64,000 bases of DNA from Comamonadaceae bacterium. GTDB lineage: Bacteria > Pseudomonadota > Gammaproteobacteria > Burkholderiales > Burkholderiaceae_C. The translations under genes were made by a program, and so were the position numbers. This document shows, in pieces, positions 12,314 to 50,580 of the stretch (the stretch's first letter is position 1; every line of letters starts with the position of its first letter). The stretch covers positions 1 through 64,000 of the forward strand of contig CANBUY010000007.1 of assembly GCA_947372745.1 (NCBI GenBank). Reading direction: 5' to 3'. The notes beneath the pieces are model-generated. The model searched no databases, was not told the DNA's origin, and worked only from the letters and a program-made list of their open reading frames with translations.

Positions 12314-13162
12314 GTGACGACTGAACTTCCTGCACTGAGCCCCGCAACTTCTGACGCGCTGGGCATGCCCCTCGTCGTGGACAACGTGGCCGTGGCCCGC
12401 TTGTATGGCGAGCCGCTGTTTGCCATGCCGCGCGACTTGTACATTCCACCGGATGCACTCGAGGTCTTTTTAGAGGCCTTTGAAGGCCCATTGGACTTGC
12501 TGCTGTACCTGATACGCAAGCAAAATTTTAATATTCTCGACATCCCCATGGCCGGCCTCACCCGCCAATACCTGGTGTATGTCGATGAAATCCGGGGGCG
12601 TAACCTGGAGTTGGCGGCCGAATACCTGCTCATGGCGGCTATGTTGATCGAGATCAAATCGCGCATGCTGCTGCCGCCCAAAAACGTGGCGCAAGGCCAG
12701 GAAGCCGAAGACCCCCGGGCCGAACTGGTGCGCCGCCTGCTGGAATATGAGCGCATGAAACTGGCCGGTGCCAAGCTCAACGCGGTGCCCCAGTTTGGCC
12801 GTGACTTCCTCAAAGCCCAGGTTTTCATCGAACAGTCTTTGCAGCCGCGCTTTCCGGATGTCAGTGCTGTGGACCTGCAAGAAGCCTGGGCGGCCATCCT
12901 CAAGCGCGCCAAACTGATTCAAATCCACAAGATCACCCGCGAAGAACTCTCGGTGCGCGAGCACATGACCCTGATCCTCAAGAAGCTCCACGGACGCCGC
13001 TTTGTTGAGTTTGAGGCGCTTTTTGATGCCAGCAAAGGAACGCCAGTGCTGGTCGTGACCTTCATTGCCATGCTGGAGCTGGCCAAAGAAACCCTGATCG
13101 AGATTACCCAGGCCGAGGTATTTGCGCCAATCTACGTTCGACTGGCTTACTCGACCACCTGA
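12314..13162 (+). CDS. scpA: Segregation and condensation protein A
   Basis: A 282-residue kleisin that bridges SMC heads in the bacterial condensin complex with ScpB. Typical ScpA blocks are FEGPLDLLLYLIRKQNFNIL (about 55-75) and YLLMAAMLIEIKSRMLLP (about 97-115), with a C-terminal winged-helix region (about 210-280, VTFIAMLELAKETL). The GTG at 12314 has no clear Shine-Dalgarno; a later in-frame ATG at residue 19 is an alternative. No scpB follows; the next gene is convergent. Confidence 0.93.
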   Translation: MTTELPALSPATSDALGMPLVVDNVAVARLYGEPLFAMPRDLYIPPDALEVFLEAFEGPLDLLLYLIRKQNFNILDIPMAGLTRQYLVYVDEIRGRNLELAAEYLLMAAMLIEIKSRMLLPPKNVAQGQEAEDPRAELVRRLLEYERMKLAGAKLNAVPQFGRDFLKAQVFIEQSLQPRFPDVSAVDLQEAWAAILKRAKLIQIHKITREELSVREHMTLILKKLHGRRFVEFEALFDASKGTPVLVVTFIAMLELAKETLIEITQAEVFAPIYVRLAYSTT

Positions 13163-16116: not shown

Positions 16117-16230
16117 GAATAGGGTGCAGGAATGGGTCTGGGGTTTGAAATATGGGGAGTTTGACCTTCATCAAGGAGCAAAAAAATTAAGGGCTTAAGC
16201 TGGTGTTTTATCAAAACAAAAAGGAAGAAT

Positions 16231-27022: not shown

Positions 27023-27778
27023 ATGACCTCACATCTCTACATCCTGACAGGCAGCTCACGAGGCATGGGTCTGGCCATGGCAGAACAGTTACTCGGTCCG
27101 CACCACCACTTGCTCTGCATCGCGCGCAACCCCAATGAAGCGTTGACGGCAAGTGCCCAGAAGGTGAACTGCCCCATTGAGCAATGGGCACAGGACCTGG
27201 AACACAGCACTCAGGCCGCTGACCGCTTGGCCCAATGGCTGACACTTCAAGATGCCAGCGACTTATCCAGCGTCACCCTCATTAACAACGCCGGGGCTAT
27301 CCCCCGTATTGCGCCCTTGAGTGGCTCAGACCCTCTCGATCTGGCGCGTGCTTTGCGAGTCGGACTAGAGGCGCCCATGCTCCTGACTGCGGCTTTTTTA
27401 AAGGCCACTCAAGCCTGGAATCTGCCGCGCAAAGTGCTCAATATTTCGTCTGGTCTGGGGCGTCGCGCCATGGCTTCGCAAGCCGCCTATTGCGCTGCCA
27501 AAGCCGGCATGGACCATTTCACACGTTGCGTGGCACTTGACGAAGCCTTAAAACCGCATGGCGCCAAGGTCTGCTCTTTGGCCCCCGGCGTCATTGATAC
27601 CGACATGCAAGTTCAGTTGCGCGGCGCAGATAGCGCTGAATTTCCCGACAAGGCTAATTTTGAAAACCTCAAACTCAAAGGTCAACTGACCTCGCCCGCT
27701 GATGCCGCCAGGCAAGTTCTCAGTTACCTTGCGCGTTCGGACTTCGGCTCGATTCCGGTCGCTGACGTACGAGATTAA
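27023..27778 (+). CDS. SDR-family oxidoreductase (sepiapterin reductase/YueD-like)
   Basis: A 251-residue SDR. It has TGSSRGMGLAMAEQL (cofactor loop, about 8-22), NNAG, SSGLGRRAMASQAAYCAAKA with the catalytic Ser-Tyr-Lys, and APGVIDTDMQ. The arrangement resembles sepiapterin/benzil reductases. It starts 22 bases after rluA. Substrate unknown. A perfect FNR box follows its stop codon. Confidence 0.85.
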   Translation: MTSHLYILTGSSRGMGLAMAEQLLGPHHHLLCIARNPNEALTASAQKVNCPIEQWAQDLEHSTQAADRLAQWLTLQDASDLSSVTLINNAGAIPRIAPLSGSDPLDLARALRVGLEAPMLLTAAFLKATQAWNLPRKVLNISSGLGRRAMASQAAYCAAKAGMDHFTRCVALDEALKPHGAKVCSLAPGVIDTDMQVQLRGADSAEFPDKANFENLKLKGQLTSPADAARQVLSYLARSDFGSIPVADVRD

Positions 27779-27792
27779 TTGATATAAATCAA
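27779..27792 (+). promoter_or_regulatory. FNR box, perfect consensus
   Basis: TTGATATAAATCAA matches TTGAT-N4-ATCAA exactly. It begins just after the SDR stop and is centred about 86 bases upstream of the bktB ATG (27872), ahead of a run of same-strand genes that includes narXL and the nar operon. FNR-type regulators bind such sites when oxygen is low. The position would allow activation of a bktB transcript; whether that transcript reads through into narXL is not visible. Confidence 0.75.
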
Positions 27793-27871
27793 ACAATCAG
27801 TAAGTTACAGGCAACTTTTCTGCCGCACACTTTAGTGCTTTTTCATCACAATTCTTACTAAGGAGATTTTC

Positions 27872-29056
27872 ATGAGTCGTGAAGTCGTTGTTGTTAGTGG
27901 TGTTCGTACGGCCATTGGTACCTATGGTGGCAGCCTGAAAGATATCCCGCCCACCGAGTTGGCCGCCCAAGTTGTGCGCGAGTCGCTGGCCCGTGCGCAG
28001 GTCGATGGCAAAGATGTGGGCCATGTGGTGTTTGGCCATGTGGTGAATACCGAACCCAAAGATATGTATTTATCGCGCGTTGCGGCGGTCAATGGCGGTT
28101 GCGGCGAAGGAACCCCTGCTTTCAATGTCAACCGCTTGTGCGGCTCGGGTTTGCAAGCCATTATTTCAGCCAGCCAAAGCATTTTGCTTGGTGATGCCGA
28201 CATTGCCATTGGTGGCGGCGCAGAAAACATGAGCCGTGGCCCCTACGCCAGTTTGTCGGCCCGCTGGGGTGCCCGCATGGGTGACACCAAAATGATCGAC
28301 ATGGTGGTCGGTGCGCTACATGACCCGTTTCACGCCATTCACATGGGCGTGACCGCTGAAAACATCGCCGCCAAGTGGGGCATCACACGCGAAGAGCAAG
28401 ACGCCATTGCCGTAGAAAGCCACAACCGCGCCCAACGCGCCACGGAAGCGGGTTACTTCACCAGCCAGATCATGCCGGTCATGCTCAAGAGCAAAAAAGG
28501 CGAAGTCGCTTATGCCACAGACGAGCATTTCCGCCCCAACTGCTCCATGGCTGACATGGCCAAACTCAAGCCAGCATTCCTCAAGGAAAATGGCACGGTG
28601 ACCGCGGGCAATGCCTCTGGCATCAACGACGCTGCTGCTGCCGTCGTACTGATGGAAGCGGGCACGGCCAAAGCGCGCGGGCTCAAGCCCATGGCCCGTT
28701 TGGTGGCTTACGCACACGCCGGCGTTGACCCTAAATACATGGGTATTGGCCCCGTACCTGCCACACAACTGGCCCTAAAAAAAGCGGGCTTGACGGTGCA
28801 TGATCTGGATGTGATTGAGGCGAATGAAGCTTTTGCTGCCCAAGCCTGCGCGGTCTCGCGCGACTTGGGTCTTGATCCCGCCAAGGTCAACCCCAATGGT
28901 TCGGGTATTTCGCTGGGTCACCCCATCGGCGCCACAGGTGCACTCATCACGGTGAAGGCCCTTTATGAGCTGGAGCGCATTGGTGGCCGCTACGCACTCG
29001 TCACCATGTGCATTGGTGGTGGCCAGGGTATTGCCGCCATTTTCGAACGCACTTGA
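27872..29056 (+). CDS. bktB: Beta-ketothiolase (BktB-type acetyl-CoA acyltransferase)
   Basis: A 394-residue thiolase nearly collinear with BktB of Cupriavidus necator as I know it (shared blocks VVVVSGVRTAIGT, NVNRLCGSGLQAI, VKENGTVTAGNASG). The nucleophile Cys is in RLCGSG (about 90), with His in GHPIGATGA and Cys in TMCIGGGQG completing the triad. The enzyme condenses acyl-CoAs for polyhydroxyalkanoate or works in beta-oxidation. AAGGAGA precedes the ATG. It lies between an FNR box and narX (31 bases on), an unusual position for a thiolase. Confidence 0.9.
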   Translation: MSREVVVVSGVRTAIGTYGGSLKDIPPTELAAQVVRESLARAQVDGKDVGHVVFGHVVNTEPKDMYLSRVAAVNGGCGEGTPAFNVNRLCGSGLQAIISASQSILLGDADIAIGGGAENMSRGPYASLSARWGARMGDTKMIDMVVGALHDPFHAIHMGVTAENIAAKWGITREEQDAIAVESHNRAQRATEAGYFTSQIMPVMLKSKKGEVAYATDEHFRPNCSMADMAKLKPAFLKENGTVTAGNASGINDAAAAVVLMEAGTAKARGLKPMARLVAYAHAGVDPKYMGIGPVPATQLALKKAGLTVHDLDVIEANEAFAAQACAVSRDLGLDPAKVNPNGSGISLGHPIGATGALITVKALYELERIGGRYALVTMCIGGGQGIAAIFERT

Positions 29057-29087
29057 TCGTGTCAGGGTCTATGGTGGGTGCCAAGCC

Positions 29088-31004
29088 ATGACCCTGCGCA
29101 AGCACTGGAGTCTGGGGGCCAAGCTGGCGTTGCTGGGGGTCCCCTTCCTCTTATTGGCCCTGCTTTCAACCGCGTTAACCCTTTGGGTTTCGTGGCAGCT
29201 TGACGGTGGGGCAGCAGCCGTCAATGAAGCTGGCCGGATGCGCATGCAGTCTTACCGAATGTCTTTGGCCATTGGCACCGGGCAAACAGAGGCACTGGCC
29301 ACCCAAGTCAAAGAATTTGAATCCAGTCTGAACGTCTTGCGAATTGGCGACGCCGACAGACCCTTATTTGTGCCATGGGACGACACCGTGCGCGCAAGGT
29401 TTGAGACCGTAGAAAAAGACTGGCTCAACTACCAAACCCGGTGGATCAATAAACAACCCGTCGCCGTCAGTAATTTGCGCGATGAGACTTTGGCATTTGC
29501 CGCGCACATCGATACCTTTGTGAGTAGCATTGAGTCGCACATCGCCCACTGGACCGCGATGCTTCACATCCTGCAGATGTCCATGTTGGCCATGGCTGTC
29601 ATGGGTGCAGCCGTCTTGCTTTACACAGGCTACCTGTTCGTACTTGAGCCGGTGAGCCAACTCAAACAAGCCATCGAGAAGATTCAACTTGGCGACTTTT
29701 CAGCACGCGTAGAACGAGTAACCACTGACGAATTTGGCACTTTGGCCGACGGTTTCAACGGCATGGCAGAGCACATGCAATCCATGTACCGGAATCTTGA
29801 GCGCAAAGTCGCGGAGAAAACGGCTGAGCTCGAAGAAAAAAACGAACGACTGGAAAGCCTCTACGATGTCACCGCGCTGGTGGCCAAGTCCAGTTCTTTG
29901 GATGAACTGGCCCAAGGGTTTGCCAAACGCATCACCCGAATTGCCCGCGCCGACGGAGTGGCCGTGCGTTGGTCTGACCAAGCCAGCCAGCGCTACCTGT
30001 TGCTGGCAGCCCAAGGATTACCCAAGAGCATGGTCGAGGCCGAGCTGTGCATTGACCGCGGTGACTGCCATTGCGGTGCCGGGCCAAGCGTAGAGAATCT
30101 TCGCGTCATTCCCATCATTTCGCGGGATACACCCCACCTGCCGCACTGCGAAAGAGCTGGGTTTGAGACCGTCGTCAATATTCCCGTGCGCCTGCATGAA
30201 CGCTTGATGGGCGAAGTGGATCTTTTCTACCATGCCAAAGTCAGCCTGGCACCAGCAGAGCGCTCGTTGTTGGAAGCCCTGGGTAGCCACTTGGCCAGTG
30301 GTATGGAAAACTTGCGCCTGACCTCGTTTGAAAAAGAAGCGGCCGTTTCGCAGGAGCGACACCTATTGGCGCGAGAACTGCATGACTCCATTGCCCAGTC
30401 TTTGGCGTTTCTAAAAATTCAGGTGCAGCTCATGCGCGATGCACTTCACTCAGGCAATGCTGCAGAGATAAAGCAGGTGCTGGAAGAAATTGACACGGGG
30501 GTGCGCGAAAGTTATGGCGATGTGCGCGAACTTTTACTGCACTTTCGCACCCGCACCAACACCGAAGACATCGAGCCCGCCCTGGCCACAACCCTGCGCA
30601 AATTTGAGCATCAAAGTGGCATGAAAGCCAGCTTGCACATGCAAGGTCAAGGCATGCCTTTGTCACCCGATTTGCAAATTCAGGCACTGCACATCGTTCA
30701 GGAAGCCTTATCAAATGTCAGAAAACATGCCCGGGCCTCACAAGTATGGCTCGATGTTCAGCAACAGCCGTGCTGGCGTTTTGAGGTGCGTGATGATGGC
30801 GTGGGCTTTTCGACCGAAAACGATGAGCTGGACGAAACCCATGTGGGCTTGCGCATCATGACCGAGCGGGCGCAACGCATTGGCGCTCAACTGGACGTCA
30901 TCTCCACACCAGGCCACGGCAGCTCCATCATTCTCACATTACCCTTACCGGCCCACCCCATGCCCCTCACAAATTCAGTTGCAACCGCAGTTGTCGCCGC
31001 ATGA
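29088..31004 (+). CDS. narX: Nitrate/nitrite sensor histidine kinase NarX
   Basis: A 638-residue membrane kinase. TM1 spans about 13-35. A periplasmic P-box-like segment follows (NEAGRMRMQSYRMSL, about 46-60), close to the nitrate-binding box of NarX. TM2 spans about 161-186, HAMP about 187-240, then a GAF-like domain with a cysteine cluster (Cys321, 327, 329, 354). The HisKA_3 H-box ARELHDSIAQSL has His432, followed by a NarL-type HATPase. It senses nitrate and phosphorylates NarL. The start at 29088 puts TM1 at the N-terminus; the frame is open upstream inside bktB. Overlaps narL by ATGA. Confidence 0.92.
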   Translation: MTLRKHWSLGAKLALLGVPFLLLALLSTALTLWVSWQLDGGAAAVNEAGRMRMQSYRMSLAIGTGQTEALATQVKEFESSLNVLRIGDADRPLFVPWDDTVRARFETVEKDWLNYQTRWINKQPVAVSNLRDETLAFAAHIDTFVSSIESHIAHWTAMLHILQMSMLAMAVMGAAVLLYTGYLFVLEPVSQLKQAIEKIQLGDFSARVERVTTDEFGTLADGFNGMAEHMQSMYRNLERKVAEKTAELEEKNERLESLYDVTALVAKSSSLDELAQGFAKRITRIARADGVAVRWSDQASQRYLLLAAQGLPKSMVEAELCIDRGDCHCGAGPSVENLRVIPIISRDTPHLPHCERAGFETVVNIPVRLHERLMGEVDLFYHAKVSLAPAERSLLEALGSHLASGMENLRLTSFEKEAAVSQERHLLARELHDSIAQSLAFLKIQVQLMRDALHSGNAAEIKQVLEEIDTGVRESYGDVRELLLHFRTRTNTEDIEPALATTLRKFEHQSGMKASLHMQGQGMPLSPDLQIQALHIVQEALSNVRKHARASQVWLDVQQQPCWRFEVRDDGVGFSTENDELDETHVGLRIMTERAQRIGAQLDVISTPGHGSSIILTLPLPAHPMPLTNSVATAVVAA

Positions 31005-31705
31005 ACTCTGCGACCAACATCAGCCCCGTGATTCGCATTTTGGTGGTGGACGATCACACCCTTTTCAGACGAGGACTGATTGCACTCCTGGGGCGAGACC
31101 CACGCCTGAGCGTGGTGGGGGATGCCGCCGATGCCAGTCAGGCACAAAGAAAAGCGCAAGAACTCAAGCCCGATCTAATCCTTCTGGACAACCACTTACC
31201 AGGTGTAAACGGCGTTGACGCCTTGCCGGCCTTGCTGGAAGCAGTGCCCGGCATGCGCGTTTTGATGCTCACTGTGAGCGAAGATGAAAACGATCTGGCC
31301 GCTGCACTACGGGGTGGCGCCGCAGGCTACTTGCTCAAAACTATGGAGGGCGACGACCTCACTGCGGCTATTCAACGGGCCATGCAAGGCAACAATGTGG
31401 TAGCCCCCGAGATGATGAGTAAACTGGTGTCGGCCTATCGTGGTGCAGCCAGCGGCGTCGCCGAGTTGCCAACATCGCCCGAGATTACGGCAACACCCGG
31501 CGATGCCTTGATGGCCAGTCTTTCTCCGCGGGAACGGGATATTTTGCGCGGAATAGCACGAGGTGCCAGCAACAAGGAAATAGCACGCGACCACGGCATT
31601 GCCGAAACCACGGTCAAAATTCATGTTCAACACGTTTTACGCAAGCTTGACGTGAGCTCACGGGTCCATGCGGCCATCATCGCCACCGAGAACGGCCTGC
31701 TTTGA
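31001..31705 (+). CDS. narL: Response regulator NarL
   Basis: A 234-residue regulator: receiver (about 10-130) with acidic pair Asp17/Asp18 and phospho-Asp63 in LLDNHLPG, then a LuxR-type helix-turn-helix (about 170-230, ASNKEIARDHGIAETTVKIH). Its start overlaps the narX stop by four bases, so the two are translationally coupled. A symmetric 7-2-7 site lies 35 bases past its stop, upstream of narK1, as expected for its target. Confidence 0.93.
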   Translation: MNSATNISPVIRILVVDDHTLFRRGLIALLGRDPRLSVVGDAADASQAQRKAQELKPDLILLDNHLPGVNGVDALPALLEAVPGMRVLMLTVSEDENDLAAALRGGAAGYLLKTMEGDDLTAAIQRAMQGNNVVAPEMMSKLVSAYRGAASGVAELPTSPEITATPGDALMASLSPRERDILRGIARGASNKEIARDHGIAETTVKIHVQHVLRKLDVSSRVHAAIIATENGLL

Positions 31706-31715
31706 TTTAGCGCAA
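31702..31715 (+). promoter_or_regulatory. Degenerate FNR-like site
   Basis: TTGATTTAGCGCAA has a perfect left half (TTGAT) and three of five matches in the right half, overlapping the narL stop and 152 bases before narK1. Two mismatches make it weak. Listed because narK promoters often combine FNR and NarL sites. Confidence 0.25.
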
Positions 31716-31830: not shown

Positions 31831-31867
31831 GGCCTAAAGTCTTGTCATGCAACAAAGGAGTTTTGGC

Positions 31868-33121
31868 ATGACAAAAAAAGGGCAAGCGCTCTCAGTGCTG
31901 ATGGTCAGCACACTGGCCTTCACCGTGTGCTTCATGGTCTGGATGATGTTTGGGGTGATCGGCATTCCCATCAAAAAGGTGTTGGGCCTTAACGCCACAG
32001 AATTTGGCCTGCTAACGGCCACGCCCGTCCTGACAGGCTCACTCATTCGGGTGCCCTTAGGAATATGGACTGACAAGTACGGTGGTCGTATCGTTATGAC
32101 CATCCTCATGGCCCTCACCGTGCCCGCGATCTGGTTGATGAGCTATGCCACTGCGTACTGGCACTTCCTCGTCATTGGTCTTTTTGTTGGATTAGCTGGC
32201 GGTGCATTTTCAGTGGGCACACCCTACGTGGCACGTTGGTTTCCAAAAAACCAACAAGGCTTTGCGATGGGCGTTTATGGCGCGGGCAACTCGGGCGCTG
32301 CCGTCAATAAATTTGTCGCACCCGCGCTGGTAGTAGCTTTTGGTTGGGCCATGGTGCCGCAAGTCTATGCGGCCATCATGGCGGCCACAGTCGTGCTATT
32401 TTGGATATTCAGCCACAGCAACCCCGCACATTTGGTACCCAGTAACACCAAATTCAGCGATCAACTCAAATCACTCAAAGACCCCAAGGTATTGAAGTAC
32501 TGCCAGTACTACAGCATCGTGTTCGGGGGCTATGTCGCTTTGTCCTTGTGGATGGTGCAGTACTACGTCGGCGAGTTTGGGCTTGACATTCGCTCGGCGG
32601 CTCTACTGGCAGCCTGCTTCTCATTGCCCGGCGGTGTACTGCGCGCGGCAGGCGGCTGGATGTCAGACAAATGGGGCGCGCACAGCGTGACATGGTGGGT
32701 TCTGTGGGTGAGCTGGATATGCCTCTTCTTGCTCAGCTACCCCCAAACCGACTTCACGGTGGCCACCATCACCGGACCAAAAACCTTTCACTTCGGGCTC
32801 AACATTTACGCCTTCACCGGCCTCATGTTCATCCTGGGTATTGCCTTTGCTTTTGGTAAAGCCAGCGTCTTCAAGTACATCAGCGATGACTACACCCACA
32901 ACATCGGCGCCATCAGCGGCATTGTCGGCCTGGCCGGTGGCTTAGGTGGGTTTGTATTGCCCATTATGTTTGGCGCCCTCATGGACTTCACCGGCATCCG
33001 CTCCAGCGCTTTCATGTTGATGTATGGCGTGGTGTGGGTGTCCCTCATCTGGATGTACTGGACCGAAGTGCGCCGCACCGAACTCCTTGGAAAAAATTCG
33101 GCTGCATTAGGCCTGCAATAA
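31868..33121 (+). CDS. narK1: Nitrate transporter NarK1 (MFS)
   Basis: A 417-residue, 12-helix major facilitator protein of the nitrate/nitrite porter family. The N-terminal helix-2 region VPLGIWTDKYGGR and GLAGGAFSVGTPYVARWFPK are family signatures. The shorter size and first position in a pair match NarK1-type nitrate/proton symporters, paired with NarK2-type antiporters. The start at 31868 follows AAGGAG; the ATG at 31847 is upstream of that site. Heads narK1-narK2-narGHJI with NarL-like sites in its leader. Confidence 0.9.
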   Translation: MTKKGQALSVLMVSTLAFTVCFMVWMMFGVIGIPIKKVLGLNATEFGLLTATPVLTGSLIRVPLGIWTDKYGGRIVMTILMALTVPAIWLMSYATAYWHFLVIGLFVGLAGGAFSVGTPYVARWFPKNQQGFAMGVYGAGNSGAAVNKFVAPALVVAFGWAMVPQVYAAIMAATVVLFWIFSHSNPAHLVPSNTKFSDQLKSLKDPKVLKYCQYYSIVFGGYVALSLWMVQYYVGEFGLDIRSAALLAACFSLPGGVLRAAGGWMSDKWGAHSVTWWVLWVSWICLFLLSYPQTDFTVATITGPKTFHFGLNIYAFTGLMFILGIAFAFGKASVFKYISDDYTHNIGAISGIVGLAGGLGGFVLPIMFGALMDFTGIRSSAFMLMYGVVWVSLIWMYWTEVRRTELLGKNSAALGLQ

Positions 33122-33148
33122 CGAAATCAAATTCACAGAAGGAATCCT

Positions 33149-34777
33149 ATGAGCCAAAGCACACAATCCAGCGCAGACATTGCAGACTGGCGCCCCGAAG
33201 ACGATAGATTTTGGGAAACAACAGGCAAAAAAATTGCTTATAAAAACCTATGGATTTCGATTCCTAACCTCTTGGTTGGCTTCGCCGTTTGGGCCATGTG
33301 GGGCATCATCACGGTGCAAATGCTCAACCTGGGCTTCCCGTTCAAACCGGCTGACCTCTTTACCCTGACCGCCATTTCTGGTTTGATGGGCGCCACCTTC
33401 CGCATTCCGGCCTCCTTCTTCATTCGGTTGGCAGGCGGACGCAACACGATCTTTTTAACCTCAGCCTTGCTCATCATTCCGGCCGTTTGGACGGGTATTG
33501 CGCTTCAAGACAAGAACACGCCTTTGTGGGTGTTTCAGGCTTGCGCGTTTTTGTCGGGCATTGGTGGCGGCAACTTTGCCTGCTCCATGTCCAACATCAC
33601 CGGGTTTTTCCCCAAGCGCCTACAAGGCACCGGCTTGGGTCTGAATGCTGGCCTGGGTAACTTTGGCGTGACCAGCATGCAGATTTTGATTCCGCTGGCC
33701 ATGACGGTGGGCTTGTTTGGCGCTGCGGGCGGCGGCTCCATGGTGCTGACCAAAGACAGCGGCTGGATTTTAGGGAAAATTTTGGCAGGCACGCCAACCT
33801 TCATTCAAAACGCGGGCTTTATTTGGGCTGCTATTTTGATTCCGCTCGTGCTGGCCGCTTGGTTTGGCATGAACAACCTCTTGCCTTTGTCGCCTAACTA
33901 CGGCGGCACCTTGGCCGCCTTCAGCAAAATCGTTTACCTGTGGGGCATGACTTGCGTTATCGGCTTGCTGGGCTTGTACCTCTACCTGCCCGCCCCCACC
34001 GGCCTGGGCTTACTCAATATGTGGGTGGCCTTGCCACTGACCATTGTGGCCACACTGGCCGTCATGAAGCTGGCAGCCTTTGGCGAGATGAAGGGCAATA
34101 TTTCCAAGCAGTTCGAGATTTTCAAGAACAAACACACCTGGTCTTTGACCCTGCTGTACATCGTGACCTTTGGTTCTTTCATCGGCTTCTCGATGGCACT
34201 GCCTTTGTCCATCACCGTTATTTTTGGCGTCAGCCACCTCCCCGATGCAGCCGGGGTCATGCAGCACGTTTTGAAAAATCCTAACGCGCCCTCAGCCCTC
34301 ACCTACGCCTGGATTGGCCCCTTCGTGGGCGCCTTGATCCGCCCTGTGGGTGGCTGGATTGCTGACAAAGTAGGTGGCTCCATCGTCACGCAAGTGATCT
34401 CGGGCGTGATGGTCGTCGCCTCAGGCGCCGTGGGTTACGTGATGATGCAGGCCTACAGCTCGGCCACGCCTGAGCAGTACTTCTCATCCTTCATGTGGCT
34501 CTTTGTGTTGTTGTTTGCCGCAAGTGGCATTGGCAATGGCTCCACCTTCCGCAGCATTGGCGTGATTTTCGACCGCCAACAAGCAGGTCCTGTGTTGGGC
34601 TGGACTTCAGCCGTTGCCGCCTACGGTGCCTTCATTGCACCCGTGGTGATTGGCGCCCAAATCAAAGCGGGCACCCCTGAAATGGCCATGTACGGATTTG
34701 CCATTTTTTACGCCGCTTGCCTGGTGATCAACTGGTGGTTCTACCTGCGCGCCGGTTCAGAAATCAAGAACCCTTAA
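33149..34777 (+). CDS. narK2: Nitrate/nitrite transporter NarK2 (MFS)
   Basis: A 542-residue MFS porter, longer than NarK1 because of an N-terminal extension and loop insertions. Family blocks are RIPASFFIRLAGGRNTIFL and SGIGGGNFACSMSNITGFFP, with RPVGGWIADKVGG in the second half. NarK2-type proteins exchange nitrate for nitrite in denitrifiers. GAAGGA precedes the ATG; 27 bases separate it from narK1. In some relatives the two are one fused protein; here they are separate genes. Confidence 0.9.
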   Translation: MSQSTQSSADIADWRPEDDRFWETTGKKIAYKNLWISIPNLLVGFAVWAMWGIITVQMLNLGFPFKPADLFTLTAISGLMGATFRIPASFFIRLAGGRNTIFLTSALLIIPAVWTGIALQDKNTPLWVFQACAFLSGIGGGNFACSMSNITGFFPKRLQGTGLGLNAGLGNFGVTSMQILIPLAMTVGLFGAAGGGSMVLTKDSGWILGKILAGTPTFIQNAGFIWAAILIPLVLAAWFGMNNLLPLSPNYGGTLAAFSKIVYLWGMTCVIGLLGLYLYLPAPTGLGLLNMWVALPLTIVATLAVMKLAAFGEMKGNISKQFEIFKNKHTWSLTLLYIVTFGSFIGFSMALPLSITVIFGVSHLPDAAGVMQHVLKNPNAPSALTYAWIGPFVGALIRPVGGWIADKVGGSIVTQVISGVMVVASGAVGYVMMQAYSSATPEQYFSSFMWLFVLLFAASGIGNGSTFRSIGVIFDRQQAGPVLGWTSAVAAYGAFIAPVVIGAQIKAGTPEMAMYGFAIFYAACLVINWWFYLRAGSEIKNP

Positions 34778-34807
34778 TCCACTCGACGCCACACTGCTGC
34801 GCTTAAC

Positions 34808-34854
34808 GCTATTTATTTAATAGCTTGTTAAACACAGCGCACATGGCCTAGAGC
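34808..34854 (+). repeat. Repeat-family copy D, narK2/narG gap
   Basis: Starts GCTATTTATTTAATAGC, then TTGTTAAACACAGCGC, then GGCCTAGAGC with an A/T-rich tail up to about 34875. It fills the 119-base gap between narK2 and narG. Head and tail match copy C. No FNR or NarL site is evident in this gap, so narG is probably expressed from upstream. Confidence 0.55.
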
Positions 34855-34896
34855 ATTATTTTATATAAATTTCAAGTTTTTTAAACGAGGACTCCC

Positions 34897-37800
34897 ATGA
34901 GCCATTTTCTGGACCGACTCAGTTACTTTTCACAACCTAGAGAGTCATTCTCGGGCGATCACGGTGTCACCACTGGCGAAGACCGCACTTGGGAAGACGC
35001 TTACCGCACCCGCTGGGCCCACGACAAAATCGTGCGCTCCACACACGGCGTCAACTGCACAGGTTCGTGCTCTTGGAAAATTTACGTCAAAGGCGGCATC
35101 GTCACCTGGGAAACCCAGCAAACCGATTACCCCCGAACGCGCTGGGATATGCCCAACCACGAACCCCGAGGCTGTGCCCGTGGCGCCAGCTACAGCTGGT
35201 ATTTGTACAGCGCCAACCGCGTGAAATACCCCTTGGTTCGCGGCCGCTTGCTCAAGCTCTGGCGTGAAGCGCGCCTGTCCATGCAACCCGTGGACGCCTG
35301 GGCCTCCATTGCCCAGTCTGACGAAAAACGCCGCGGCTACCAAACCGTGCGCGGCTTGGGTGGCTTTGTGCGCTCGGGTTGGGAAGAAGTCAACGAGATG
35401 ATCGCAGCCGCCAATGTGTACACCATCAAAAAACACGGCCCAGACCGGATTGTGGGCTTCTCCCCCATTCCTGCCATGTCGATGGTCAGCTACGGCGCGG
35501 GTAGCCGCTACCTCAGCTTGATTGGGGGTGTTCCCTTAAGCTTTTACGACTGGTATTGCGACTTGCCACCGGCCAGCCCACAAGTCTGGGGTGAGCAAAC
35601 CGACGTGCCAGAGTCGGCTGATTGGTACAACTCCACGTTCATCATTGCCTGGGGCTCCAACGTGCCCCAAACCCGCACGCCCGATGCGCACTTCTTCACA
35701 GAAGTTCGCTACAAAGGTACCAAGACCGTGGCGGTCACGCCAGATTACTCAGAAGTCGCCAAGCTGTCCGACATCTGGATGAAGCCCAAGCAAGGTACCG
35801 ATGCCGCCGTGGCCATGGCCATGGGCCACGTGATTCTCAAAGAGTTTTATTTCCCCGATGGCGACAAACCCCGCAGCGCCTACTTTGACAACTACGTGCG
35901 CCGCTTCACTGACATGCCCATGCTGGTGATGCTCAAAGAGCACCAGTTGCCCAATGGCGACACCGTGATGGTGCCCGACCGCTACGTGCGCGCCTCGGAC
36001 TTCAATGGCAAGTTGGGTGCCGCCAACAACCCGGATTGGAAAACTGTTGCGTTTGACGAATCAGGCAAAGTCGTGCTGCCCAACGGTGCCATTGGCTTCC
36101 GCTGGGGACCAGACGGACGCGCCGACGAAGGCCAGTGGAATCTGGAAGCCAAAGAAGCACGCCACGGCACTGAGGTCAAACTCAAACTGTCCGTCATGGA
36201 AGGTGACAACCCAAGCCTTGAGACCGCCAAAGTGGGCTTCCCCTACTTCGGTGGCATCGTCAGTGAGCACTTCCCCAACAACGCCACCGGCGATGCAGCC
36301 AAAGACGTGTTGGTGCGCACTGTGCCCGTTCAGCGCATCTCGCTGGGCAAGGAAGGCGACAAACGCGAAGCCCTGGTGGCCACGGTGTTTGACTTGCAAG
36401 TGGCCAACTACGGCGTAGCACGCGGACTTCCAGGCGAACTCGCCGCCAAAGACTTCAACGACGACACCCCTTACACCCCCGCCTGGCAAGAGCGCATCAC
36501 CGGCACGCCGCGTGAGCAACTCATTACCGTTGCACGTCAGTTTGCCGAGAACGCCGACAAGACACATGGCAAATCCATGGTCATCATCGGTGCGGCCATG
36601 AACCACTGGTACCACGCCGACATGAACTACCGCGGCGTCATCAACATGTTGATGATGTGCGGGTGTATCGGCCAATCCGGCGGCGGCTGGGCGCACTATG
36701 TGGGTCAGGAAAAACTCCGTCCTCAAACCGGCTGGACGGCGCTGGCCTTTGCACTCGACTGGGTGCGCCCACCCCGGCAAATGAATGGCACCAGCTTTTT
36801 CTACGCCCACACCGACCAGTGGCGCTACGAAAAACTGGGCATGGACGAAGTGCTCTCGCCCTTGGCTGACAAAAAGCTCTATGGCGGCAGCATGATCGAC
36901 TACAACGTGCGTGCCGAACGCATGGGCTGGTTGCCGTCGGCACCGCAACTCAAGACCAACCCATTCCAGGTGGTCAAGGACGCAGAAGCCGCCGGCATGA
37001 GCCCGGTAGACTACACCGTCAAAAGCCTGAAGGACGGCTCATTGGCCATGAGTTGCGAAGACCCAGACCACCCCAACAACTGGCCGCGCAATATGTTTGT
37101 GTGGCGCTCCAACATTTTGGGCTCCAGTGGCAAGGGCCATGAATACTTCCTCAAACATTTGCTCGGCACCACCCACGGCGTGCAGGGCAAAGACTTGGGC
37201 GCCGACGAAGCCAAACCCACCGAGGTGGTATGGCACAAGGAAGCACCTGAAGGCAAATTGGACCTCGTGGTCACGCTTGACTTTAGGATGAGCACCACCT
37301 GCTTGTACTCTGACATCGTGCTGCCCACTGCCACCTGGTACGAGAAAAACGACCTTAATACGAGCGACATGCACCCGTTCATCCACCCGCTCTCGACGGC
37401 GGTGGACCCCGCTTGGCAGTCACGTAGCGACTGGGATATTTACAAAGGTTTCGCCAAAAAATTCAGCGAACTCTGTGTCGGTCATTTGGGGGTTGAGCGC
37501 GAAATGGTGTTGACACCACTGATGCACGACACGCCTGCTGAATTGGCCCAGCCCTTCGGCGTGCAAGACTGGAAAAAGGGCGAGATTGATCTCATCCCAG
37601 GCAAAACCGGCCCCAACATGGCCGTGGTGGAACGCGACTACCCCAATGTCTACAAACGCTTCACGGCGCTTGGCCCCCTGCTCAACAAGATGGGCAACGG
37701 CGGCAAAGGCATCGGCTGGAATACACAACTTGAGGTCAAACAACTCGGCGAACTCAATGGCTTGGTGACCGAAGAAGGTGTGACCTGTGGCATGCCCAAG

Positions 37801-38703
37801 ATTGAGACCGACATTGACGCTTGCGAAGTCATTTTGCAACTCGCCCCTGAGACCAATGGCACGGTGGCGGTCAAAGCCTGGAAGGCGCTGGGCAAGCAAA
37901 CCGGACTGGACCACACGCACCTGGCGATCTACCGCGAAGACGAAAAAATTCGTTTTAGGGATATTCAGGCGCAACCCCGCAAGATCATCAGCTCCCCCAC
38001 CTGGAGCGGTATTGAGTCGGAGACTGTGTCCTACAACGCGGGCTACACCAACGTGCACGAGTCGATCCCATGGCGCACCCTCACCGGTCGCCAGCAGTTT
38101 TACATGGATCACCCGTGGATGACTGCATTTGGTGAAGGCTTCAGCAGCTACCGTCCGCCTGTTGATTTGAAAACCACCGTTGGTATTCAAAACATCAAGC
38201 CCAATGGCCACAAGGAAATTGCGCTCAACTTCATCACACCGCACCAAAAGTGGGGCATTCACTCCACCTACAGTGACAACCTGATGATGCTCACCCTGAA
38301 CCGAGGCGGCGCTGTGATTTGGCTGAGTGAAGACGACGCCAAATCAGTCGGCATCGAAGACAACGACTGGGTTGAACTTTTCAACATCAACGGCGCCATT
38401 GCCGCCCGCGCCGTGGTCAGCCAGCGTGTCAACAACGGCATGGTCATGATGTACCACGCCCAAGAAAAAATCGTCAACGTGCCAGGGTCTGAGATCACCG
38501 GCACACGCGGCGGCATTCACAACTCAGTCACCCGCATTGTGCTTAAGCCCACCCACATGATTGGCGGCTACGCACAGTTCAGCTACGGCTTTAACTACTA
38601 CGGAACCATCGGCACCAACCGCGATGAGTTTGTGGTAGTTCGCAAGATGAACAAAGTGGACTGGCTCGATGACGAACCCAGCTCAACCGAATCCCAAGCC
38701 TAA
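34897..38703 (+). CDS. narG: Respiratory nitrate reductase alpha subunit NarG
   Basis: A 1268-residue Mo-bisPGD catalytic subunit reducing nitrate to nitrite on the cytoplasmic side of the membrane. The FS0 [4Fe-4S] ligands His50, Cys54, Cys58 and Cys93 align within one residue of the E. coli positions, and the molybdenum ligand Asp222 lies in YCDLPP. The short N-terminus with twin-Arg remnant loss is as in other NarG. The ribosome site is ACGAGGA. narH overlaps only as an open frame; its true start is 10 bases after the narG stop. Needs FdhD-independent cofactor insertion by NarJ. Confidence 0.98.
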   Translation: MSHFLDRLSYFSQPRESFSGDHGVTTGEDRTWEDAYRTRWAHDKIVRSTHGVNCTGSCSWKIYVKGGIVTWETQQTDYPRTRWDMPNHEPRGCARGASYSWYLYSANRVKYPLVRGRLLKLWREARLSMQPVDAWASIAQSDEKRRGYQTVRGLGGFVRSGWEEVNEMIAAANVYTIKKHGPDRIVGFSPIPAMSMVSYGAGSRYLSLIGGVPLSFYDWYCDLPPASPQVWGEQTDVPESADWYNSTFIIAWGSNVPQTRTPDAHFFTEVRYKGTKTVAVTPDYSEVAKLSDIWMKPKQGTDAAVAMAMGHVILKEFYFPDGDKPRSAYFDNYVRRFTDMPMLVMLKEHQLPNGDTVMVPDRYVRASDFNGKLGAANNPDWKTVAFDESGKVVLPNGAIGFRWGPDGRADEGQWNLEAKEARHGTEVKLKLSVMEGDNPSLETAKVGFPYFGGIVSEHFPNNATGDAAKDVLVRTVPVQRISLGKEGDKREALVATVFDLQVANYGVARGLPGELAAKDFNDDTPYTPAWQERITGTPREQLITVARQFAENADKTHGKSMVIIGAAMNHWYHADMNYRGVINMLMMCGCIGQSGGGWAHYVGQEKLRPQTGWTALAFALDWVRPPRQMNGTSFFYAHTDQWRYEKLGMDEVLSPLADKKLYGGSMIDYNVRAERMGWLPSAPQLKTNPFQVVKDAEAAGMSPVDYTVKSLKDGSLAMSCEDPDHPNNWPRNMFVWRSNILGSSGKGHEYFLKHLLGTTHGVQGKDLGADEAKPTEVVWHKEAPEGKLDLVVTLDFRMSTTCLYSDIVLPTATWYEKNDLNTSDMHPFIHPLSTAVDPAWQSRSDWDIYKGFAKKFSELCVGHLGVEREMVLTPLMHDTPAELAQPFGVQDWKKGEIDLIPGKTGPNMAVVERDYPNVYKRFTALGPLLNKMGNGGKGIGWNTQLEVKQLGELNGLVTEEGVTCGMPKIETDIDACEVILQLAPETNGTVAVKAWKALGKQTGLDHTHLAIYREDEKIRFRDIQAQPRKIISSPTWSGIESETVSYNAGYTNVHESIPWRTLTGRQQFYMDHPWMTAFGEGFSSYRPPVDLKTTVGIQNIKPNGHKEIALNFITPHQKWGIHSTYSDNLMMLTLNRGGAVIWLSEDDAKSVGIEDNDWVELFNINGAIAARAVVSQRVNNGMVMMYHAQEKIVNVPGSEITGTRGGIHNSVTRIVLKPTHMIGGYAQFSYGFNYYGTIGTNRDEFVVVRKMNKVDWLDDEPSSTESQA

Positions 38704-38713
38704 GGAGAAAAAA

Positions 38714-40237
38714 ATGAAAATACGCGCACAAATAGGCATGGTTTTAAACCTGGACAAGTGCATTGGTTGCCACACTTGCTCAGTCACCTGCAAAAACGTC
38801 TGGACCAGCCGTCCAGGTATGGAATACGCTTGGTTCAACAACGTCGAGACCAAGCCTGGCATTGGTTACCCCAAAGAATGGGAAAACCAGGACAAGTGGA
38901 ATGGCGGCTGGATTCGCAAAGCCAATGGCAAGATTGAGCCCCGTCAGGGCGCCAAGTGGAAGCTGCTCATGCGCATCTTCGCCAATCCCAACATGCCCGA
39001 GATTGACGACTACTACGAGCCCTTCACTTTCGATTACGACCATCTTCAGTCGGCTCCTGAATCAAAAGCGCCCCCAACCGCACGCCCACGCAGCCTGATC
39101 ACGGGCAAGCGCATGGAAAAAATTGTCTGGGGTCCCAACTGGGAAGAAATTCTGGGCGGAGAGTTCTCGAAACGCAGCAAAGACAAAAACTTTGATGACA
39201 TCCAAAAGGACATCTACGGCCAGTTTGAAAATACATTCATGATGTATTTGCCACGCCTGTGTGAGCACTGCCTGAACCCTGCTTGTGTGGCGAGCTGCCC
39301 TTCGGGCTCCATCTACAAACGCGAAGAAGACGGCATTGTGCTCATTGACCAGGACAAGTGCCGTGGTTGGCGCATGTGCGTCAGCGGATGCCCTTACAAA
39401 AAGATTTACTACAACTGGAAATCTGGCAAGGCTGAAAAGTGCATCTTCTGCTACCCCCGCATTGAAGCCGGTCAACCCACCGTCTGCAGTGAAACCTGCG
39501 TCGGTCGCATTCGTTACCTGGGCGTTCTTTTGTATGACGCAGACCGCATTCAGGAAGCCGCCAGCGTGGAGCATGATCGCGACCTGTACCAGGCCCAGCT
39601 CGACATCTTCCTGAACCCGAATGACCCAGCAGTCATCGAGCAAGCACGCATTGACGGCATTCCTGACAAATGGATGGAAGCCGCCCGCAAGAGCCCGGTG
39701 TACAAAATGGCCGTGGACTGGAAAGTGGCCCTGCCCCTGCACCCCGAGTACCGCACGCTGCCCATGGTTTGGTATGTGCCGCCCCTCTCGCCGATCAGTG
39801 CAGCAGCCAACGCTGGGCACATCGGCATCAACGGCGAGATACCAGACGTCAAACAGTTGCGGATCCCGGTCAAGTACCTGGCCAACCTGCTCACGGCGGG
39901 CGACACCCAACCGGTGGAGCGTGCGCTGGAGCGCATGCTGGCCATGCGCGCCTACCAGCGTGAAAAGCATGTCGATGGACGCATCAACACCGCAGCGCTG
40001 GATCAGGTCCAAATGAGCCAGAAAGACGTCGAAGAGATGTACCACGTCATGGCGATTGCGAACTACGAAGACCGCTTTGTCATCCCAAGCACGCACCGCG
40101 AGTACGCTGAGAATACCTTTGATATGCGCGGTGGCTGCGGCTTCTCGTTTGGCAACGGTTGCTCAGATGGCGCCACTGAAACCAGCTTGTTTGGCAGCAG
40201 CAAACGCCGCACCATTCCTATCAAGGCGGGAGTCTAA
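38714..40237 (+). CDS. narH: Respiratory nitrate reductase beta subunit NarH
   Basis: A 507-residue electron-transfer subunit with four iron-sulfur clusters. Cluster ligands start at Cys16, 19, 22 and 26 (CIGCHTCSVTC). The second set is in CEHCLNPACVASCP; the third in CRGWRMCVSGCP, where Trp replaces a Cys, giving the [3Fe-4S] centre; the fourth in CIFCYPR with CSETCVGR. The start 38714 follows AAGGAG; the frame is open back into narG. Three-base gap to narJ. Confidence 0.98.
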   Translation: MKIRAQIGMVLNLDKCIGCHTCSVTCKNVWTSRPGMEYAWFNNVETKPGIGYPKEWENQDKWNGGWIRKANGKIEPRQGAKWKLLMRIFANPNMPEIDDYYEPFTFDYDHLQSAPESKAPPTARPRSLITGKRMEKIVWGPNWEEILGGEFSKRSKDKNFDDIQKDIYGQFENTFMMYLPRLCEHCLNPACVASCPSGSIYKREEDGIVLIDQDKCRGWRMCVSGCPYKKIYYNWKSGKAEKCIFCYPRIEAGQPTVCSETCVGRIRYLGVLLYDADRIQEAASVEHDRDLYQAQLDIFLNPNDPAVIEQARIDGIPDKWMEAARKSPVYKMAVDWKVALPLHPEYRTLPMVWYVPPLSPISAAANAGHIGINGEIPDVKQLRIPVKYLANLLTAGDTQPVERALERMLAMRAYQREKHVDGRINTAALDQVQMSQKDVEEMYHVMAIANYEDRFVIPSTHREYAENTFDMRGGCGFSFGNGCSDGATETSLFGSSKRRTIPIKAGV

Positions 40238-40240
40238 ATC

Positions 40241-40948
40241 ATGGCCTTACCCAACGCCTCCATGAGCCTGCGCGTGTTGGCCCGCCTGCTGGCCTACCCC
40301 GACGCTGAACTGCGCAGCCAGTTGCCCGACCTGCGCCAAGCCCTGCAGGAAGACAAGGTTGTCAAAGGCGCCCGCTTGGCCGAGCTCAACGCGCTGATGA
40401 CCCACCTGGCAGGTGGCGACGCGCTTGAGAATGAAGCCGACTACGTTCAGATTTTTGACCGGGGCCGTGCCACGTCCTTGCATCTCTTTGAGCACGTACA
40501 CGGCGACTCCCGCGAGCGCGGTCCGGCCATGATTGACCTGACGCAAACCTACGAGAAAGCCGGGCTCTTTTTAGGCCCAGATGAAATGCCGGACTATCTG
40601 CCCGTGGTGCTTGAATTTGTGTCCACCCAGCCCGCCGTGGAAGCCCGTGCTTTCCTGGGTGAAATGGCCCACATTTTTAACGCCATTTTCAGCGCGCTGG
40701 ACAAGCTAGACAGTGCCTACGGCAGCGTCATCGGTGCCCTCTTGGAGATCGCCGGTGAAACGGCCCATGCGGTCAAAGTCACACCTGATGAGCCTGTGGA
40801 CGCCACTTGGGAAGAACCTGTTGTTTTTGATGGCTGCTCTACCAAGGGGCAGGCCAAACCCGGTGACGCCCAACCCATGCACTTTGTCAAACAGGTAGCG
40901 ACTGCCTCTAGCGCCAAGATGGCAACAACACAAGGAGTAACCCCATGA
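40241..40948 (+). CDS. narJ: Nitrate reductase assembly chaperone NarJ
   Basis: A 235-residue all-helical chaperone of the TorD/NarJ type that holds apo-NarGH for molybdenum cofactor insertion and membrane docking. Typical blocks are LARLLAYPDAELRSQLPDL near the start and YVQIFDRGRATSLHLFEHVH (about 67-86). GGGAG is about 8 bases before the ATG. The last codons overlap narI by ATGA. The C-terminal tail after about residue 180 is Pro/Lys-rich and probably disordered. Confidence 0.95.
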   Translation: MALPNASMSLRVLARLLAYPDAELRSQLPDLRQALQEDKVVKGARLAELNALMTHLAGGDALENEADYVQIFDRGRATSLHLFEHVHGDSRERGPAMIDLTQTYEKAGLFLGPDEMPDYLPVVLEFVSTQPAVEARAFLGEMAHIFNAIFSALDKLDSAYGSVIGALLEIAGETAHAVKVTPDEPVDATWEEPVVFDGCSTKGQAKPGDAQPMHFVKQVATASSAKMATTQGVTP

Positions 40949-41679
40949 ATGCCCTCGATAATTTTCTGTTTGGCCTGTACCCTTATATCGCCCTCACCGT
41001 ATTCTTACTGGGCAGCCTGATCCGCTTTGACCGCGACCAATACACCTGGAAAAGTGACTCATCGCAGCTGCTCAAAGCGGGGCAATTGCGGGTGGGCAGC
41101 AACCTGTTTCATATCGGTGTCCTGTTCCTGTTTTTTGGCCACTTCTTTGGCATGTTGACCCCTCACTTTGTGTACGAGTCCTTCATCAGTGCAGGCAACA
41201 AGCAAGTGATGGCGATGGTCTCAGGCGGAGTGGCCGGTGTGCTGGGCTTTATCGGTGTCACCGTGCTCTTGCACCGCCGCTTGTTTGAGCCACGTATTCG
41301 CATCAACTCCAAAACCAGCGACATTGTTTTGCTGATCTTGTTGTGGCTGCAACTGGCCTTGGGCCTGGCCACCATTCCCTTGTCTGCACAGCATCTGGAT
41401 GGCAGCATGATGATGAAACTGGCAGGCTGGGCACAACACATTGTGACGTTTCAGGCAGGTGCGCCTGAGTTATTGGCTGAAGCAGGTTGGATTATTAAAA
41501 TGCACATGTTCTTGGGCATGAGTATTTTCTTCATCTTCCCGTTTACGCGTCTGGTTCATGTGTGGAGTGGCTTTGGTGCGGTGGCCTATTTGGTTCGGCC
41601 TCACCAGGTGGTTCGCTCGCGCCGCTTGAATGTGCCGGCAGGTCAAAACCAACCTCGCCGCCCCGGCTCTGGTGTTTAA
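40945..41679 (+). CDS. narI: Respiratory nitrate reductase gamma subunit NarI (cytochrome b)
   Basis: A 244-residue, five-helix diheme cytochrome b that oxidises quinol at the periplasmic side. The heme-ligand histidines occur at His56, His66, His187 and His205, the same numbers as in E. coli NarI. A Pro/Arg-rich C-terminal tail (about 231-244) extends beyond the E. coli protein. Coupled to narJ by ATGA overlap; the next gene begins 10 bases on. Confidence 0.97.
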   Translation: MNALDNFLFGLYPYIALTVFLLGSLIRFDRDQYTWKSDSSQLLKAGQLRVGSNLFHIGVLFLFFGHFFGMLTPHFVYESFISAGNKQVMAMVSGGVAGVLGFIGVTVLLHRRLFEPRIRINSKTSDIVLLILLWLQLALGLATIPLSAQHLDGSMMMKLAGWAQHIVTFQAGAPELLAEAGWIIKMHMFLGMSIFFIFPFTRLVHVWSGFGAVAYLVRPHQVVRSRRLNVPAGQNQPRRPGSGV

Positions 41680-43717: not shown

Positions 43718-43756
43718 GCTGAATTTATTGTTCAGCCCATTCTTGCTTCAAGTCAA
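43718..43756. promoter_or_regulatory. Inverted repeat and weak FNR/Dnr-like site upstream of nrdJ
   Basis: GCTGAA / TTCAGC (43718-43723 and 43731-43736) form a perfect 6-bp inverted repeat with a 7-base spacer. Close by, TTGCT-TCAA-GTCAA (43743-43756) differs from TTGAT-N4-ATCAA at two positions and resembles Anr/Dnr-type sites. Both lie in the 170-base gap between the small divergent gene and nrdJ. I saw no cobalamin riboswitch signature. Confidence 0.3.
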
Positions 43757-43806
43757 TGAAAGTCAGACGCTCGACTCGTAACATCTTTGAAATTTCAGGA
43801 AAAAGC

Positions 43807-50511: not shown

Positions 50512-50580
50512 GGTGAAATCTCCTCTGCTAAAACCCCAGTGTCTGCCCAGTTCCCCTTGCAAACCTTGACCTTCATCAAC

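Follow-up and report, generated by a model that had tools for sequence, protein, structure and literature searches.

The window analysed here, a stretch of 64,000 nucleotides, carries on its plus strand a beta-ketothiolase gene, bktB (27872-29056), the product of which scored 763.2 bits against the NCBIfam BktB model NF042999 (cut-off, 725). Upstream of bktB lies an ORF for an SDR-family oxidoreductase (27023-27778, plus strand; 257.7 bits to NCBIfam NF005436, its best match, with a cut-off of 292), and an SDR gene is found 5' of bktB in many relatives as well. The base directly after the stop codon of the SDR gene is the first base of an exact FNR box, TTGATATAAATCAA, at 27779-27792 (no strand assigned), which was read directly from the sequence and the pattern of which was counted genome-wide. 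All 10 of the 10 bases specified by the FNR consensus TTGATNNNNATCAA, an inverted repeat, are matched, and the centre of the box (27785.5) is located 86.5 bases 5' of the bktB ATG (27872), in agreement with the first-pass annotation, which had placed a perfect consensus ~86 bases ahead of bktB. The window contains a second exact match at 12644-12657, within open frames on both strands, and a one-mismatch FNR-like 14-mer, TTGACCTTCATCAA, appears at 16161-16174 and 50566-50579 as well as ahead of bktB in the locus L176.

A gap of 31 bases (29057-29087, plus strand) separates bktB from a gene for a nitrate/nitrite sensor kinase-like protein, narX (29088-31004), which is followed by a response regulator gene, narL (31001-31705), overlapping narX by 4 bases; both are on the plus strand. 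The best NCBIfam matches of the narX product were NarQ (297.7 bits; cut-off, 553) and NarX (210.6 bits; cut-off, 578), so that the equivalog level was not reached, and the best match of the narL product was the NarL model with 192.7 bits against a cut-off of 250. As these scores are below the curated cut-offs, the names narX and narL rest partly on gene order and should be read as "narX-like" and "narL-like". Frames for nitrate transport and reduction occupy 31847-41679, with narK1, narK2, narG and narH starting at 31847, 33149, 34897 and 38669, respectively, all on the plus strand. The products of narG and narH exceeded their NCBIfam cut-offs, the NarK family score was below its cut-off, and narJ and narI were assigned purely from gene order. 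The order bktB, narX, narL, narK1K2 and narGHJI on a single strand, with 31 bases between the first two genes, thus stands as originally annotated on the basis of ORFs and profile scores, with the "-like" qualification for narX and narL. After the nar cluster, we noticed a gene for an adenosylcobalamin-dependent ribonucleotide reductase of the NrdJ type (43756-46731; above the TIGR02504 cut-off), an enzyme which would suit anaerobic growth.

BktB generally prefers longer 3-ketoacyl-CoA. Elsewhere in the genome, contig C6 carries a gene for a class I PHA synthase, and BktB is probably an accessory thiolase here, because that synthase gene adjoins the gene for a different thiolase.

Linkage of bktB to narX, narL and the reductase genes

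We found no terminator-like site in the 31-base gap by a terminator scan, the nearest plus-strand match being at 29135, inside narX, and a simple consensus search detected no sigma-70 promoter on the plus strand between 26900 and 32000. The first-pass annotation had named both a strong terminator in this gap and the gene order in relatives as points to be examined. The former was not found by the scan, and the latter proved to be conserved. In the genus set of 89 genomes, which includes the window's own, BktB was present at the set threshold in 61 and a narX match in 63, the narX counts taking in a few matches of 50-53% identity that are possibly paralogues. Fourteen genomes had BktB only, 16 had narX only and 47 had both. 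Among these 47, narX was found less than 200 bp downstream of bktB in 34 and within 3 kb in 36, the former being a lower bound, as broken contigs can mask adjacency. The space between the matched ends was 22-62 bases in 33 of the 35 adjacent places. The same order was found in L009 (Rhodoferax sp.), the bktB of which is identical to that of G329, and narX was downstream in 4 of the 80 BktB loci retained from a named genome collection. The pair bktB-narX thus lies on one strand with a short, terminator-free gap and a conserved order, as is expected of a predicted bktB-narXL operon.

In a bktB tree of 73 rows, nine of which came from outside the genus (five of them picked for having a box), the presence of the narX neighbour was clustered, requiring 14 changes where shuffled labels required 24.7. 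Because of this clustering, we regard the bktB-narX pairing as old in the genus and as having been lost or regained in places, on the evidence of the sequences compared. The combination of SDR gene and bktB, often together with rluA, occurs without narX in many relatives. In G340 and G341, bktB and narX are 1.3 kb apart, and the gene between them in G340 (locus L271) is presumably NnrS-like, judging from a stretch FLRLGFRPFYL. By the same motif, what we take to be an NnrS-like gene lies just before narX in five other genus genomes (L254, L260, L261, L262 and L266), where narX is not behind bktB. In G328, a single-contig relative, the nar genes at G328:C1:1790973-1792864 and 1796738-1800508 show narX matches split into two pieces and a narG with an in-frame TGA, pointing to either a decaying nar module or sequence errors.

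The reductase genes appear to be a separate matter. The narL-narK gap of the window is 141 bases long, and a pattern scan combined with comparison of relatives revealed a second FNR-like site, TTGATTTAGCGCAA, with two mismatches at 31702-31715 (no strand assigned). In each of the 10 loci in which narK closely follows narL (nine from relatives, and the window), an FNR-like site is centred 136-139 bases before narK; two of these sites are exact, one has one mismatch, four including that of the window have two, and three have three. The exact ones are in L009 and L183, and the L009 copy is letter-identical to the box ahead of bktB in the window. Two other loci, in which narK lies 2-4 kb from narL, are devoid of such a site. 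Since the left half of the window's junction site shares bases with the narL stop codon, coding constraint may account for some of the conservation. FNR-activated narK-narGHJI promoters are known, and the junction site, which is separate from the box before bktB, fits that pattern. Most likely, narK1K2-narGHJI are under an FNR promoter of their own. Several members of the genus carry bktB-narX-narL without narK or narG directly behind. In L162 and L155, the cluster gives way to convergent frames, though narG may be located at a greater distance on the contig, as it is in G121 and G304. Because the junction site was kept in 10 of 10 loci and such members exist, bktB probably heads narXL only, and not the reductase genes. 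The proposal that a thiolase heads the nitrate regulon is therefore supported as regards the close and conserved bktB-narX pair, but not as regards narK1K2-narGHJI, which lie behind their own FNR-like site.

FNR boxes in the genome and upstream of bktB

The assembly to which the window belongs comprises 3.6 Mb in 217 contigs and is ~86% complete. The exact FNR pattern was detected at 21 places in the whole genome, against 1 for a reversed control pattern. Of the 19 exact sites beyond the window, rough gene calls assigned 13 to intergenic stretches and 6 to frames; one of these six is the fnr box, at which the start of the frame is ambiguous. The same genome encodes an FNR homologue (C77:5504-6199; 236 bits against the NF008365 cut-off of 228), and an exact box is located 89 bases 5' of the match. 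Given 21 exact against 1 reversed match, mostly outside frames, a chance origin of an exact intergenic box is unlikely as far as such counts can tell. The predicted FNR box before bktB is probably real, with the caveat that exact matches within genes occur too.

Conservation of the box is another matter. Nearly all relatives that share the gene order lack the box, among them G322, the BktB of which is 97% identical, as well as G328 and G329, neighbours of the window in the bktB tree. The first-pass annotation had counted beforehand against its own reading an absence of the site from close relatives, and this absence is what we found. An alignment of 22 upstream regions gave no counterpart of the box in the tree neighbours of the window, which speaks against a conserved but diverged box.

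We then counted boxes within 300 bases upstream of bktB in 126 distinct regions, having dropped those in which bktB had less than 74% identity or a start more than 3 residues off, or which had an N, too little upstream sequence or duplicate last 60 bases. Four exact and five one-mismatch boxes were present, whereas 19 permuted palindromes gave no exact box in the same regions and at most 2 one-mismatch boxes for any of them; this excess is measured against permuted patterns and would be smaller against the general intergenic density of boxes. The nine boxes were scattered on the bktB tree, except for those of the sisters L012 and L016. In three of the nine (the window, L170 and L176) narX lies within 1.6 kb, and in six it does not. 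The boxes at -214 in L012 and at -150 in L016, the latter near an opposite-strand frame start, may serve other genes. The scattering, and the lack of narX behind six of the nine, suggest that FNR input to bktB seems to arise repeatedly, irrespective of nar genes. Common descent of the boxes with many losses may also apply, because two loci of another clade, L128 and its relative L122, have boxes near the distance seen in the window (-86): that of L128, with one mismatch, is at -83, and that of L122, with two, is at -82. The idea that narX usually brings its own FNR box was rejected: where narX is not directly behind bktB, none of 20 narX upstreams had a box of one mismatch or less within 500 bases. 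Altogether, the link from FNR and low oxygen to the thiolase advanced by the first-pass annotation is plausible, the box count being above chance, but the box itself is only patchy in the genus.

The bktB promoter and its Pho-like repeat

By alignment with the CANACT/TAAGAT hexamers of relatives, the candidate -10 hexamer of the bktB promoter in the window is CACACT (27826-27831, plus strand). In relatives, these hexamers are mostly 40-52 bases from the bktB ATG; the nearest relatives of the window have TAAGAT at -66 to -74 and a CANACT-like hexamer nearer the ATG. The predicted -10 puts the centre of the FNR box near -52.5. The usual activating FNR centres are -41.5 and -61.5. By predicted -10 hexamers, the exact boxes of L026 and L170 are both centred near -59.5, and that of L012 near -186.5. 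For an FNR-type class II promoter, passages of one study place the site at -42 (PMC5934665).

Many relatives (e.g., L152, L109 and L030) have, about -90 to -40 from the bktB ATG, a direct repeat stepped by 11 bases and set 10 bases ahead of the -10, as in the pstS Pho-box promoters of the genus. We built a Pho profile from pstS Pho boxes of the genus, 23 of them for the register test, from which a doubtful site that was part of the profile in the score test had been removed. The exclusions made for the box count also applied to the listing of hexamers and to both Pho tests. In the register test, which was restricted to regions carrying a single such hexamer in place (32, 22 and 8 of 124) and in which the hexamers were chosen after the upstream listing had been viewed, the profile peaked on bktB regions at the pstS register: the mean was -15.8 against -22.4 at the next-best shift for the genus (n = 32), and -8.8 against -16.4 outside the genus (n = 22). 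The eight genus regions of the window's CANACT type gave no clear peak (-18.2 at the register, -17.3 at another shift). Mean best Pho-box scores exceeded those of shuffled sequences with z of 3.5 (48 non-genus regions) and 3.4 (59 genus regions), and 0.4 in 18 distant ones. Scores of 8 or more were seen in one of the 48 non-genus regions and one of the 59 genus regions, where 0.5 and 0.6 were expected, giving no excess of strong sites. By sequence score, the case for strict Pho boxes is mixed, the mean being in excess and the strong sites not; the register test was the clearer of the two.

Unlike the pstS Pho boxes, which have TGTCAC, the half-sites before bktB read GTCAG/TGTAG. The window does not carry both: CAGTAAG is kept and the second half is lost, with AGGCAAC at the expected place, leaving a possible degenerate remnant of the direct repeat (27798-27815, plus strand) that we infer from the register. 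From these results we read the bktB promoter in the family as putatively Pho-type, or at least PhoB/OmpR-type. Phosphate control of a PHA thiolase would be possible in family members with the repeat before bktB. Self-control of the bktB promoter by NarL was also considered and rejected: NarL heptamers (TACYNMT) occurred 10 times in 63 genus upstreams, whereas 360 permuted patterns averaged 17.3 and 282 of them reached 10, and no full 7-2-7 pair was found in the 63 upstreams, two regions being within two mismatches.

Interpretation of the bktB-narX-narL unit

The explanation that we favour, with modest confidence, is that a local FNR box was gained in the lineage of the window ahead of an old bktB-narX-narL transcript. 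At low oxygen, FNR would bind 27779-27792 and change the transcription of bktB, and read-through of the 31-base gap would change that of narXL too, while narK1K2-narGHJI would answer FNR mainly through the site at their own junction. As respiration slows, the thiolase would supply or drain 3-ketoacyl-CoA, being made together with the nitrate sensor. Binding, its direction, read-through and benefit are all things we infer from the DNA, activation being more likely than repression. This scenario is supported by the exact box, the genome-wide count, the presence of an FNR homologue, and the short, conserved gap free of terminators, and further by the recurrence of the box before bktB (9 of 126 regions), the class I PHA synthase in the genome and the precedent in Herbaspirillum seropedicae described below. 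It is weakened by the absence of the box from close relatives and by a centre near -52.5, off the standard positions, as well as by the 6 of 19 other exact sites that lie in frames and by boxes so far upstream of bktB that some may serve other genes.

The position of the box brings up an alternative that we deem unlikely, in which FNR binds at a place overlapping, or immediately 5' of, the RNA polymerase site of the inherited promoter and represses or tunes it, so that low oxygen would lower bktB-narXL expression or have little effect on it. Activating FNR sites are not normally centred near -52.5, and a few bases separate the box from the remnant of the direct-repeat promoter that follows it; were TAAGTT (27801-27806) the -10, the box would overlap the -35. 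Nevertheless, the start site is a prediction, and the exact boxes of L026 and L170 are close to the class I position, although the third, in L012, is far upstream. Still less likely, in our view, is a box that controls bktB alone, with narXL driven from a separate internal promoter and adjacency being inherited order without joint regulation. The many relatives with SDR-bktB and no narX, the six of nine boxes before bktB without narX within 1.6 kb, and the two genomes with 1.3 kb spacing, one of them with the presumed NnrS-like gene in between, are in line with this view; on the other hand, the spacing of 22-62 bases that 33 of the 35 adjacent places show between matched ends, a window gap without a terminator-like site, and the 0 of 20 narX upstreams with a box, which indicates that narX rarely brings its own, speak for joint transcription. 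That the box arose by chance, as a palindrome to which no regulator binds, we regard as very improbable: its lack of conservation in the closest relatives and the second exact match at 12644 inside open frames would fit, but 21 exact against 1 reversed match in the genome, and 9 of 126 regions before bktB against 2 or fewer for permuted palindromes, would not.

Returning to the favoured reading of a gained FNR box ahead of an old transcript, the linkage of FNR to such genes is less unusual than the first-pass annotation supposed. In passages on H. seropedicae, a betaproteobacterium, phaC1 and the thiolase gene phbA2, which encodes a PHB-type acetyl-CoA acetyltransferase, are described as direct targets of Fnr1, and narXL as a direct target of Fnr3 (PMC5934665); PHB synthesis in this species depends on Fnr1 and Fnr3 (PMC5862806). 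FNR input to storage-polymer genes and FNR input to nitrate sensing are thus each already known. The window differs in that the thiolase and sensor genes adjoin behind one box, a linkage that those H. seropedicae passages do not give. Similarly, a review tabulates Anr-dependent PHB for Pseudomonas extremaustralis, in which, at low oxygen, this FNR-type regulator increases the expression of storage-polymer genes, acting on phaR and phaC and not on a bktB-narXL unit (PMC9049629). Among the literature matches listed, which give partial coverage, the bktB-narXL pair was not named in titles or the starts of abstracts, and where bktB and narX were co-mentioned, the excerpts name the genes in separate sections only.

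A further idea, which we raise tentatively and consider somewhat unlikely, is that the ancestral bktB-narXL promoter was Pho-type, so that phosphate shortage and carbon storage would have set the amount of nitrate sensor, and that single lineages added or swapped in FNR, rewiring the promoter from phosphate to oxygen. A conserved unit joining a thiolase and a nitrate sensor would couple carbon storage with electron-acceptor choice in these bacteria, and the patchy boxes together with the Pho-like repeats make the family a natural series in which to watch a promoter change its signal.
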